A DNA stretch of 64,000 nucleotides. It comes from Halorubrum salinarum (GTDB lineage: Archaea > Halobacteriota > Halobacteria > Halobacteriales > Haloferacaceae). How positions within the stretch are numbered: the first letter of the stretch is position 1; every line of letters begins with the position of its first letter. Made by a program: the position numbers and the translations under genes. The stretch spans positions 2,542,001 to 2,606,000 of the forward strand of contig NZ_CP053941.1 of the NCBI RefSeq assembly GCF_013267195.1. Reading direction: 5' to 3'. The notes below the pieces were generated by a model. The model saw nothing but the letters and a program-made list of their open reading frames with translations, was not told where the DNA came from and did no database searches. Shown piece by piece: positions 55,250 to 60,133 of this stretch.

Positions 55250-55481
55250 TGCCGGGAGAAGCGGTCGCGCGCGTAAAGCGGTGTCGTCATCGCGGGCCAC
55301 GTCGCGCCCGCATCGCAGCCCATGTCGCGCTCTCGTCGGAATCAGTCACGTCGCCGGGGGCCCGGCCGCCCGCGAGTCCGACACCGTGGTTCGACTCCGC
55401 GTCCGCCGGTCGGAGACGACCGTTTGCGAAGAATTCTCAAACATGACGGACTGATAAATATATATTATTTCATAGAAAGAT

Positions 55482-55489
55482 TTTATAAA
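55482..55489 (+). promoter_or_regulatory. TATA-like box of the 5'-nucleotidase-like gene
   Basis: tttataaa centred 27 bases before the ATG at 55512; further AT-rich tracts lie at 55453-55470. Confidence 0.6.
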
Positions 55490-55511: not shown

Positions 55512-57434
55512 ATGTCACGGGACCGTGACTACGGACGGCGTGACGTACTGCGAGCGGGTGGAATCGTACTCGGCGGGTCGCTCGTCTCCGGCTCGGCGGC
55601 GGCCGCGGACGGCGAGGGAGCGACGACGCTCACCGTCCTGTCGTACAACGACATCCAGACGGCGGCGGCGCAGGACGAGAACTTCCCGCGGCTGGTGACG
55701 CTCATCGAGCAGCGGCGGGCGGCGGCCGACGGCCCCGTCGTCGTGGTCGGCGGCGGCGACGAGGTGGGACCGCACGCGCTGAGCCCGGTCTCGCAGTGGC
55801 GCGCGCCGGTGGACGTGCTCAACGAGGTCGGCCCGGACGCGGACGTGATCGGCAACCACGAGTTCGACTACGGGCTCGACCCCATCTCGGACGTGACGGC
55901 CGACTCCGAGTTCCCGTGGCTCGCGACGAACCTCGTCGACAGCGAGACCGGCGAAGCGTTCGACGGGACGGAGTCCGTCCGAATCGTCGAGCGAGGCGGT
56001 GTCAAGGTCGGCCTGATCGGACTCGTCGACGAGGGCGCGACGTTCGGAAAGACGAACATCAAATTCAACGAAGAAGGGTTGACACTCGAAGACTACACCG
56101 AAACCGGCCCCGCCGAAGCGAAGCGGCTCAAGGAAGAGGAGGGCGTCGACGCCGTCGTCGCCCTCGCGCACACGGGCATCAGTGACGCCGAGGACCTCGC
56201 GGAGGCCGACGCGGACGACGACATCGACGTGATCGTCGTCGGCGACGACGAGCAGTTCTATCCGCCCGAGGAGGTCGACGGGTCGATCGTCTCAGAGGCT
56301 CGGGCCCGCGCCCGCTACCTCAGCGAGATCGAGCTGACGGTCGAGGGCGGCGAGGTCACCTCGTTCGACGGGCAGCTGATCGAGGTCACCGACGACATCG
56401 AGAAGGACCCGACCGCGTCCGACATCATCAACGAGTACCGCGGAGAGGTGAGCCTGGACTCGACGGTCGTGGAGACGGAGACGCCGCTCAACGCCACGTT
56501 CGGGGCGAACTACCACCGCGAAACCGGCTACGGTAACCTGATCACCGACGCGATGCGCGAGCGCGTCGACGCCGACGCCGCGATCACGAACGCGGGCGGT
56601 ATCCGCTCGGACTCGGTGTACGGGCCCGGCGAGATCACCGGCGGTGACATCTTCAACACGTTGCCGTTCCCGAACACGGTCATCTCGCTTGAGCTCACCG
56701 GCGAGGAGCTCGTCGAGACCTTAGAGAGCCAGGTCGTCACGCTGGAAAGCGAAACTGGGCAGAACTTCGGCGAGGAGATATCCCAGCAGACCAGCGGCCT
56801 GCGCTTCGAGTGGGTCCCCCACGACGACGCCGACGAACTGATCCGCGACGTGTACGTTGACGGCGAGCCGCTCGACCTCGAGGAGACGTACGAAGTGGCA
56901 GTCAACAGCTTCATCGCAAACGGCGGGAGCGGCTACCCGCTGGCGGACAAACCCGTAGCCGAGGAAACGGGAGAGCTCCAGGCGGAGACCGTGGTCAACT
57001 ACCTACAGGAGCGGGAGACGATCGCTCCGACCGTCGAAGGCCGGATGCAGCGCGTCGACCGCGACCTCCCCGACGCGTCGGTCACCGTCGACGGGAACGG
57101 CAAGGTGGTCACGCAGTTCGACGCGCCCGACGACGTCGACTCCGTCGCCGAGGACGCCGTCGCCGTGTGGACGCCGGACGGCGAGCACCTCGACGCGGAG
57201 ACGGTCGTCTTCGCGGCGGGCGGTGACAACCTGATGGTCCGCGTCGACGACGGCGACTTGGCGGACGCGGTCGAGGACGCGGACGACGGCGACGAGGTTC
57301 CGCTCGACCTCTACGCCGAGTACGAGTCGAGCGAGTTCGACCAGATCTACTTCGAGCGCTCGCGGCTGAACGCCGACGTGGCGGCGACCGTGCGCCGCCG
57401 CGGTCGCGGCCGCGCCGGCCCCCCGGGACGCTGA
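55512..57434 (+). CDS. Exported 5'-nucleotidase/UshA-like protein with altered metal site
   Basis: A 640-residue exported protein with a Tat signal (YGRRDVLRAGGIVLGG). It has the two domains of the UshA/CpdB family: an N-terminal calcineurin-like phosphoesterase and a C-terminal nucleotide-binding domain (YHRETGYGNLITDAMRE, ITNAGGIRSD, IANGGSGYPL), then an extra beta domain of about 130 residues. GNHEFDYG (114-121) and AHTG (H220) are kept, but the DxH motif reads D47-I-Q49 and the GHxH motif reads GDDE (244-247), so several metal histidines are missing. Catalysis is therefore doubtful or altered. The extreme C-terminus is arginine-rich. Confidence 0.88.
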   Translation: MSRDRDYGRRDVLRAGGIVLGGSLVSGSAAAADGEGATTLTVLSYNDIQTAAAQDENFPRLVTLIEQRRAAADGPVVVVGGGDEVGPHALSPVSQWRAPVDVLNEVGPDADVIGNHEFDYGLDPISDVTADSEFPWLATNLVDSETGEAFDGTESVRIVERGGVKVGLIGLVDEGATFGKTNIKFNEEGLTLEDYTETGPAEAKRLKEEEGVDAVVALAHTGISDAEDLAEADADDDIDVIVVGDDEQFYPPEEVDGSIVSEARARARYLSEIELTVEGGEVTSFDGQLIEVTDDIEKDPTASDIINEYRGEVSLDSTVVETETPLNATFGANYHRETGYGNLITDAMRERVDADAAITNAGGIRSDSVYGPGEITGGDIFNTLPFPNTVISLELTGEELVETLESQVVTLESETGQNFGEEISQQTSGLRFEWVPHDDADELIRDVYVDGEPLDLEETYEVAVNSFIANGGSGYPLADKPVAEETGELQAETVVNYLQERETIAPTVEGRMQRVDRDLPDASVTVDGNGKVVTQFDAPDDVDSVAEDAVAVWTPDGEHLDAETVVFAAGGDNLMVRVDDGDLADAVEDADDGDEVPLDLYAEYESSEFDQIYFERSRLNADVAATVRRRGRGRAGPPGR

Positions 57435-58180: not shown

Positions 58181-58188
58181 TCTATAAT
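58181..58188 (+). promoter_or_regulatory. TATA-like box of the AOR gene
   Basis: tctataat centred 26 bases before the ATG at 58211. It overlaps the first possible ATG (58187), which argues for 58211. Confidence 0.5.
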
Positions 58189-58210
58189 GAACGAGCATTA
58201 CATGACTGAA

Positions 58211-60133
58211 ATGGGCGGCTACAGAGACCGTGTGGCACAGGTCGATCTCGGCGGTGGCGAGGTCAGCTACCGCGGGATCGACGACGACGACGCGGAGAAG
58301 TACATCGGCGCGCGCGGGCTCGGCGTCAAGTACGTCTTCGACAAGGGGCCCGACGTGGACCCGCTGGGACCGGAGAACCGACTGGCGTTCATGACCGGCC
58401 CGCTGACGGGCACCCAGACCGTGATGAGCGGCCGGATCGCGCTGGTGACGAAGTCCCCGCTGACGGGGACGGTCACCGACTCGCACCACGGCGGCTGGTC
58501 CGGGGCGCGGCTCAAGTGGGCCGGGCTCGACGGCATCCTGCTCGACGGCGAGAGCGACGAGCCCGTCTACCTGTTCGTCGAGGACGGCGACGTGGAGGTA
58601 CGCGACGCCTCGCACCTCTGGGGGCAGGGCGTCCACGACACGATCGACCAGCTCGGCGAGGAGGTCGAGGGCAAGGTCGGCCGCGACGTCTCGGTGATGG
58701 CGATCGGCCAGGGCGGCGAGAACCAGGTGCGCTACGGCTGCGTCATCAACGAGGACGACCGCGCCTCGGGCCGCGGCGGCACCGGCGCCGTGATGGGCGC
58801 GAAGAAGGTGAAGGCGGTCGTCGTGAAGTCGGGCACGGACATGCCCAAGCCCGCCGACCCCGAGACGTTCCAGGAGGGGTACCAGCAGGCGATGGAGGTC
58901 ATCCGCGAGTCCGACGTGACCGCGCCCAACGAGGGCGGGCTCTCGATGTACGGGACCAACGTCCTGATGAACGCGACCGAGGAGATGGACGGGCTCCCGT
59001 CGAAGAACGCGAAGTACACCTCGACCGAGGCGTACCACGACGCGGAGGGCGTCGACATCGAGGCGGAGCGCGTCTCCGGCGAGAACGTCCGCGAGAACAT
59101 CCTCGTCGACGAGCCGACTTGTCACTCCTGCCCGGTCGCGTGTAAGAAGGAGGTCGAGGTCAACGTCACGCACAAGGGCCAGGACATGAACGTCCGCACG
59201 GAGTCGTACGAGTACGAGTCCGCGTGGGCGCTCGGTCCGAACTCGGGGCACTCCGACCGCGACGAGATCGCGGTCATGCTCCAGCGCTGTAACGACCTCG
59301 GCATCGACACCATCGAGGCCGGCAACATGATGGCGATGGCGATGGAGATGAGCGAGGAGGGCAAACTCGACGGCGTCGGTCACCTCGACTGGGGCGACTC
59401 CGAGACGATGATCGACCTCATCGACGAGATCGGCCACCGCTCGTCGGACCTCGGCGACCTCCTCGCGGAGGGCCCCGAGCGCGTCGCCGACGCGAAGGAC
59501 GCGCACGGCAACAAGCTCTCCGTCAAGGGGCAGACGATGGCCGCCTACGACCCGCGCTGTATGAAGGGCATGGGGATCGCGTACGCGACCTCCAACCGCG
59601 GCGCCTGCCACCTGCGCGGCTACACGCCGGCCGCCGAGATCCTCGGGATCCCGGAGAAGGTCGACCCGTACGAGTGGGAGGGCAAAGGCGAGCTCACCGC
59701 CACCTTCCAGGACCTCCACGCGGTGTCAGACTCGTTCGACATCTGTAAGTTCAGCGCGTTCGCGGAGGGAATCGAGGAGTACGTCCTCCAGTACAACGGC
59801 GTCACCGGCCGCGACGTCACGGAGGACGAGCTGTTCGAGGCCGGCGAGCGCGTCTACAACCTCGAACGCTACTACAACAACCTCGCCGGCTTCGACGGCG
59901 CGGACGACACGCTGCCGAACCGGTTCATCGAGGGCCACCCGGACGCCGTTCCCGGCACCGGCGCCAGCGAGGGCGAACTCGTCGAACTCGACCAGCTGAA
60001 GGCCGAGTACTACGAGACCCGCGACTGGGTCGACGGGGTCGTCCCCGACGAGAAGTTGGAGGAACTCGGCATCGACATCGGCCCCGGCACCGGCGTCTCC
60101 GCCGGCGACTCCGCGGCCCCGGCCGACGACTGA
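58211..60133 (+). CDS. aor: Aldehyde ferredoxin oxidoreductase (tungsten AOR family)
   Basis: A 640-residue tungstopterin enzyme that oxidises aldehydes to acids with ferredoxin as acceptor. The 4Fe-4S ligands are C304, C307, C311 (CHSCPVACK) and C512 (DICKF), matching the spacing in hyperthermophile AOR. The N-terminal GGYRDRVAQVDL and SPLTGTVTDSHHGGWSG, GRGGTGAVMGAKKVKAV and ATSNRGACHLRGY are family marks. Three in-frame ATGs exist (58187, 58202, 58211); the TATA-like box supports 58211, which also gives the canonical start. The MoaD-like small protein often next to AOR genes is absent. Confidence 0.94.
   Translation: MGGYRDRVAQVDLGGGEVSYRGIDDDDAEKYIGARGLGVKYVFDKGPDVDPLGPENRLAFMTGPLTGTQTVMSGRIALVTKSPLTGTVTDSHHGGWSGARLKWAGLDGILLDGESDEPVYLFVEDGDVEVRDASHLWGQGVHDTIDQLGEEVEGKVGRDVSVMAIGQGGENQVRYGCVINEDDRASGRGGTGAVMGAKKVKAVVVKSGTDMPKPADPETFQEGYQQAMEVIRESDVTAPNEGGLSMYGTNVLMNATEEMDGLPSKNAKYTSTEAYHDAEGVDIEAERVSGENVRENILVDEPTCHSCPVACKKEVEVNVTHKGQDMNVRTESYEYESAWALGPNSGHSDRDEIAVMLQRCNDLGIDTIEAGNMMAMAMEMSEEGKLDGVGHLDWGDSETMIDLIDEIGHRSSDLGDLLAEGPERVADAKDAHGNKLSVKGQTMAAYDPRCMKGMGIAYATSNRGACHLRGYTPAAEILGIPEKVDPYEWEGKGELTATFQDLHAVSDSFDICKFSAFAEGIEEYVLQYNGVTGRDVTEDELFEAGERVYNLERYYNNLAGFDGADDTLPNRFIEGHPDAVPGTGASEGELVELDQLKAEYYETRDWVDGVVPDEKLEELGIDIGPGTGVSAGDSAAPADD

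Follow-up and report, generated by a model that had tools for sequence, protein, structure and literature searches.

The question raised by this locus is whether a protein that carries the fold of the 5'-nucleotidases, and in which several of the histidines of the metal site are replaced, may still be an enzyme. In the window, that is, the whole stretch of 64,000 nucleotides analysed, the open reading frame at 55512-57434 on the forward strand, to which all the features below also belong, is a complete gene for a 640-residue 5'-nucleotidase-fold protein with a signal peptide. This peptide (GRRDVLRAGG..., residues 1 to ~32, 55512..55607) is presumably of the twin-arginine (Tat) type, judging by its sequence pattern, and the protein would accordingly be exported. 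A Pfam search of the protein gave PF00149 (metallophosphoesterase, residues 42-245, 55635..56246; 27.9 bits against a cut-off of 21.5) followed by PF02872 (5_nucleotid_C, residues 327-478 from Pfam and the alignment, 56490..56945; 137.9 bits against 23.6), the succession of domains of the 5'-nucleotidase superfamily, each above its curated cut-off. The C-terminal beta-rich region of about 115 residues (57057..57407), for which the predicted structure is of low confidence (pLDDT 63.7), gave no Pfam match at E 0.001 and is kept in 10 aligned relatives at 38-86% identity.

The AlphaFold2 model, built from a 40-row alignment (pLDDT 83.7, pTM 0.79; residues 1-34 below 50), predicts the two-domain fold of UshA and CD73. 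It superposes on UshA entry 1ho5_A with a Z of 35.5 and an rmsd of 4.4 over 460 aligned residues, covering residues 34-515, and on entry 4wwl with a Z of 35.7 and an rmsd of 7.3, a spread that probably reflects the orientation of the two domains. The comparison with UshA, which the preliminary description had proposed as a check, is thus in agreement with the predicted two-domain fold (Z ~35.5).

The metal site departs from this ordinary picture. An alignment of 169 rows, comprising the protein, UshA of E. coli K-12 (L176) and 167 relatives, places UshA D41, H43, D84, N116, H117, D120, H217, H252 and Q254 at D47, Q49, D83, N115, H116, D119, H220, D245 and E247, respectively. Motif I, D47-I48-Q49 (GAC ATC CAG, 55650-55658), stands in the place of the canonical D-x-H, and motif V, D245-D246-E247 (GAC GAC GAG, 56244-56252), in that of H-x-H/Q, such that the canonical dimetal motifs D-x-H and G-H-x-H/Q are here D-I-Q and G-D-D-E. 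The remainder of the site is present: D83 (55758..55760), the counterpart of UshA D84 and the expected bridging ligand; the GNH[ED]xxD motif as GNHEFDYG (N115-H116-E-F-D119, 55854-55868), with N115 as the expected metal-binding Asn and H116/D119 as the expected catalytic His/Asp pair; and H220 of AHTG (56169-56171), the counterpart of UshA H217 in AHxG and, from the alignment, expected to be the sole histidine remaining among the metal ligands. The GNHEFDYG, AHTG, D-I-Q and GDDE motifs reported in the preliminary description are confirmed by the codons in the DNA and by the alignment. Its statement that several metal-site histidines are missing holds for H43, replaced by Gln, and H252, replaced by Asp, but less so for position 254, which is already Gln in UshA; the protein lacks two histidines compared with UshA and three compared with the common bacterial D-x-H/G-H-x-H arrangement. 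Wherever a ligand is lost, the alignment shows a residue that could bind metal in its stead; the roles described for Efn1 were assigned to the protein by motif.

This substitution pattern recurs widely in haloarchaea. A family-level search found a match in 144 of 170 genomes and a class-level search in 301 of 391, and from among the matches listed we drew 145 haloarchaeal rows (including 4 fragments), a sample biased by recruitment through similarity to the protein itself, and 72 bacterial rows including UshA. Open reading frames shorter than 250 residues, identical proteins (L036-L042 are in part duplicate loci) and matches below 60 bits had been dropped before the 169-row alignment, and the later, enlarged set took one open reading frame per locus; of the entries listed, G034 and G036 and fragments of G112, G120, G053 and G294 were left out. 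Sixty-seven full-length haloarchaeal proteins, including the one under study and 65 of them distinct, start the nine-column site with D and Q, and the same 67 rows are obtained when E at the last column is also required; the four fragments, namely two pieces of L021 and the loci L022 and L023, are outside this count. Their pairwise identity ranges from 0.34 to 1.0, with a median of 0.47, and they span seven family codes (f1, f2, f3, f4, f6, f7 and f8). Among 79 named loci, those with at least 49% identity belong to the haloarchaeal genera Halorubrum, Halolamina, Halorussus and Halomarina, and all others are bacterial and reach no more than 34%.

The site reads D-Q-D-N-H-D-H-D-E in 63 of these proteins and D-Q-D-N-H-D-H-H-E in four, so that eight of nine columns are invariant, the invariance of D47 and Q49 being partly by construction as both were used to pick the proteins, and only position 245 varies, with Asp in 63 and His in 4; positions 246 and 247 are Asp and Glu in 67/67. 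Only 52 of 572 well-filled columns are invariant, and none of 200,000 random sets of nine columns was as conserved as the metal site. Further residues specific to the group are Y45, P87 (a place held by Gly in 67/67 canonical rows), W96, D246, Y250 and E262 (56295..56297; Glu in 67/67, Gln in 60/67 canonical rows). A tree from which the nine site columns were omitted, with 9 outgroup rows, was obtained by a quick search in which the program flagged long branches. In it, the 67 proteins lie on one side of a branch with a support of 90, which is not decisive; together with eight proteins of a D-G type they form a clade with a support of 99, and the eight alone form one with a support of 100. Another comparison took 13 of 38 rows with D-x-E and 12 of the 72 bacterial rows. 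The four GHDE proteins, L025 and L181 among those with His at this place, are nested within the GDDE clade (forks 82-98), and Asp and His therefore exchange at position 245 in nature. The alignment with other haloarchaeal copies, likewise proposed beforehand, has accordingly revealed substitutions shared by 67 full-length proteins, and on this evidence the protein is no lone decayed copy. It represents a form of a known enzyme family that is conserved in haloarchaea and whose metal site departs from the standard one, but its fold and general role are ordinary.

One account of D-I-Q and GDDE would be recent decay, sequencing error or an overall drift towards acidic residues in a halophile, and the 22% of Asp plus Glu in the protein, together with a G-D-N-H motif in another protein of the same genome, could be taken in its favour. 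As judged from the alignment, chance or sequencing error is excluded as the cause, because the same residues recur in the 67 full-length proteins. The gene is moreover under purifying constraint in its coding frame, with a dN/dS of 0.20-0.39 in all seven pairs with Halorubrum loci. As a control, the eight proteins of the same genome that match PF00149 or PF12850 outside the 5'-nucleotidase family were inspected: D-x-H is kept in 8/8 and G-H-x-H in 7/8, from which it follows that the motif change is not genome-wide; the eighth protein, L257, which we take to be Mre11-like, is the one with G-D-N-H. Decay, error or drift is consequently regarded as very improbable. The idea that exported members of the family lose their histidines was also considered and dropped, as haloarchaeal groups with H-x-H and signal-like N-termini keep more of them, and export alone does not explain the changed site since such signal-bearing groups exist.

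We turn to the reading that we favour with some reserve, namely that the protein is an exported dinuclear metallophosphohydrolase of 5'-nucleotidase fold, still catalytic with a rebuilt metal site. It is favoured because the substitutes are possible ligands, are kept down to 34% identity, and position 245 is only Asp or His. From the sequence, the predicted fold, the conservation and the phylogeny given above, we infer the following roles. One metal would be held by D47, Q49, D83 and E247, and the second by D83, as the bridging ligand, with N115, H220 and D245. N115, H116 (with D119) and R365 would hold the phosphate and ease the departure of the leaving group in the manner reported for related enzymes, and F386 and F467 would sandwich the base. 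A site of this kind, in which a single histidine is accompanied only by amide and carboxylate groups, may prefer Mn2+, Mg2+ or Ca2+ to Zn2+. This preference is put forward with caution: Mg, Mn, Co and Ca have been tried in assays as activators of UshA, which has the histidines (PMC8071527), and these metals hence need no changed ligand set. The protein would probably serve to free phosphate from nucleotides, or from esters akin to them, outside the cell.

The preliminary description had left the choice between a nucleotide-binding protein and an enzyme with another metal arrangement, and had considered the nucleotide-binding domain intact. The latter statement stands for R365, F386, N388 and F467, which align with UshA R410, F429, N431 and F498, but it does not extend to F330, Y334 and S473, which replace R375, R379 and D504, three residues that line the UshA pocket. 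Across the 67 proteins the R410, F429 and N431 places are invariant, and the expected phosphate contacts N115, H116 and R365 are present in 67/67. The R375 place is F in 54, A in 6, S in 3, G in 3 and R in 1, and the D504 place is S in 28, G in 15, D in 10 and Y in 5, with 9 gaps. It can be surmised from the changed R375, R379 and D504 equivalents that AMP may not be the substrate.

This distribution bears directly on the proposal that the protein is a pseudoenzyme, in which the C-terminal domain still binds a nucleotide or nucleoside and metal catalysis has been lost. The absence of the DxH and GHxH histidines speaks for it, as does the fate of the sister branch of eight proteins, which indicates that catalysis can be lost in this lineage. 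A pseudoenzyme, however, should keep its pocket and let its metal site drift. Here the columns of the metal site vary less than some of those in the pocket (the R375 and D504 places), H116 and D119 are present in 67/67, and all the substitutes are possible ligands. For this reason the active enzyme is favoured over the binder, which we consider unlikely, albeit deserving serious attention. The suggestion of an enzyme with another metal arrangement is thereby the better sustained of the two, with ligand-capable substitutes kept through the clade, while that of a nucleotide-binding protein appears to fit the sister branch better.

The eight proteins of that branch (L032-L035, L115, L116, L117 and L218) are read in open frames of 727-1211 residues and have Gly at the Q49 place, Pro at the H220 place and Gln, Asp or His at the E247 place. 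L117 has gone further: D83, N115 and H116 are lost as well, the catalytic His being replaced by Ser. All eight nevertheless keep the residues at the R410 and F429 places, and a dN/dS of 0.05-0.30 (two domains, four pairs) indicates purifying selection. These proteins look like candidate secreted pseudoenzymes, and better candidates than the clade under study; L032 and L035 end in what we take to be a dockerin-like repeat. Since this site-depleted branch is itself under purifying selection, constraint alone is not proof of catalysis.

It can also be asked whether a different chemistry, or a single metal, would suit the altered site, for instance in a phosphodiesterase or in a pyrophosphate or UDP-sugar hydrolase. 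The fold serves varied substrates, SoxB structures match the model nearly as well as UshA does (Z 32-33 versus 35-36), and the pocket residues differ from those of UshA; yet both half-sites retain a full set of possible ligands, and such a change is, in our estimation, rather improbable beside a rebuilt dinuclear site.

The other members of the family in haloarchaea also depart from D-x-H. The common bacterial pattern D-H-D-N-H-D-H-H-H occurs in 65 of the 72 bacterial rows and in none of the 145 haloarchaeal rows; the seven other bacterial rows comprise two with Asn at the D120 column, two without an N-terminus, UshA (Q254), L111 (E254) and the divergent L114. A search with a bacterial protein as query (391 genomes, 310 matched) gave no haloarchaeal canonical pattern among the 30 loci listed, which were 26 proteins already read and four others: one extended read of the gene under study, one read of the L198 gene with other boundaries, and two proteins from the groups whose D41 column holds His. 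Outside the 67, the haloarchaeal rows fall into D-E-D-N-H-D-H-H-H (38), D-G...P (8), His at the D41 column (28) and the fragments (4). The D-x-E group shares with the protein a departure from D-x-H but keeps G-H-x-H, and His at the 252 column is retained in 24 of the 28 rows whose D41 column holds His (H-x-H, H-x-Q or H-x-G). In the latter (L118-L137 and L219-L224, e.g. H-D-T-H-x-H) an Asp two residues before H-x-H is a candidate for the role of D41; the C-termini of L119 and L121 are presumably PGF-CTERM-like. The genome itself holds three family members, the protein under study, L001 (550 residues, on another contig) and L003 (485 residues). The paralogue L001/L005 resembles a lipoprotein, and its metal motifs read H-x-G and G-D-D-A. 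L003/L006 and 37 further rows have D-x-E for D-x-H and a pocket mostly of Glu and His, and the copies L003 and L150 have no apparent signal; the D-x-E group perhaps acts on another substrate.

The surroundings of the gene were also inspected. In 7/7 Halorubrum loci with both flanks (L036-L041 and L043) its neighbours are a divergent gene for archaeosine RaSEA on one side and one for aldehyde ferredoxin oxidoreductase on the other; RaSEA is likewise present at L046, where the contig ends within the gene, and neither neighbour is found at L042 (Halolamina, downstream flank only), L044 or L045 (Halomarina). In the window the aldehyde ferredoxin oxidoreductase gene (AFOR_N/AFOR_C, 58187-60133) is 93-97% identical across the 7/7 Halorubrum loci. 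No functional link emerged from Pfam matches of the eight open reading frames beside L044 and L045, the neighbours examined included no gene of phosphate metabolism, and the neighbourhood was set aside as a clue to function. Across nine aligned regions (the window and eight Halorubrum loci), the best conserved upstream stretch besides the gene start is the block at 55472..55489, some 23-40 bases before the ATG, which we take to be a BRE/TATA-like element. Phosphate regulation through an upstream element was discarded, as this block alone is conserved and the available part of PMC6560208 gives no box sequence. A link to the polyphosphate-degrading activity of Haloferax was likewise not retained: in the accessible text of PMC13318637, SurE is the sole 5'-nucleotidase named, and the words metallophos and calcineurin are absent.

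At the evolutionary level, we tentatively advance as a possibility that haloarchaea evolved, on a single occasion, a widespread family of exported phosphohydrolases with a single-histidine dimetal site using the alkaline-earth or Mn ions of brine instead of zinc, and that the site then disappeared in a related lineage, which turned into a binding protein, so that a natural series of canonical, re-plated and dead sites resulted. This proposition is weakened by UshA, which, histidines notwithstanding, also responds to Mg, Mn and Ca as activators. If the preferred reading of a working enzyme with a rebuilt site is right, a binuclear phosphatase can work after most of its metal-binding histidines have given way to carboxylate or amide ligands, the natural Asp/His variants at one ligand allow a comparison, the metal choice of secreted enzymes and the chemistry of brine become a testable link, and the labels of ordinary 5'-nucleotidase and of dead enzyme may both mislead for these proteins. 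Among the matches listed in the open-licence literature, no paper on a haloarchaeal metal-site variant was apparent from title or abstract opening, and PMC8475336, in the part available, has nothing on these metal ligands.

Among known systems, UshA, the 5'-nucleotidase/UDP-sugar hydrolase, is the closest reference, with 22-26% identity in structural alignments. The likeness lies in the two-domain fold and in the equivalents of D41, D84, N116, H117, D120, H217, R410, F429, N431 and F498, and the difference in H43 to Gln, H252 to Asp, Q254 to Glu, R375 to Phe, R379 to Tyr and D504 to Ser; the UshA equivalog NF007109 scored 156.2 bits, under its curated cut-off of 600. Phrog_19584, of unknown function, matches residues 39-476 with 160 bits. 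The fold of human CD73 also matches the model, and CD73 is reconstituted by Zn or, less well, by Co, and not by Mn or Mg (PMC11708047). The same paper describes a family site made up of two Asp, three His and one Asn, while the AlphaFold 3 model of fission yeast Efn1 lists four His, with one metal held by Asp, Asn, His and His and the other by Asp, His, Asp and His, and with Asn, His and Arg in contact with the phosphate (PMC11708047). These three phosphate contacts have counterparts in the protein, matched by motif and not through an alignment with Efn1. It is in the metal ligands that the systems diverge: the site of CD73, Efn1 and Efn2, as described there, holds several histidines (PMC11708047), whereas one is kept in the haloarchaeal protein.
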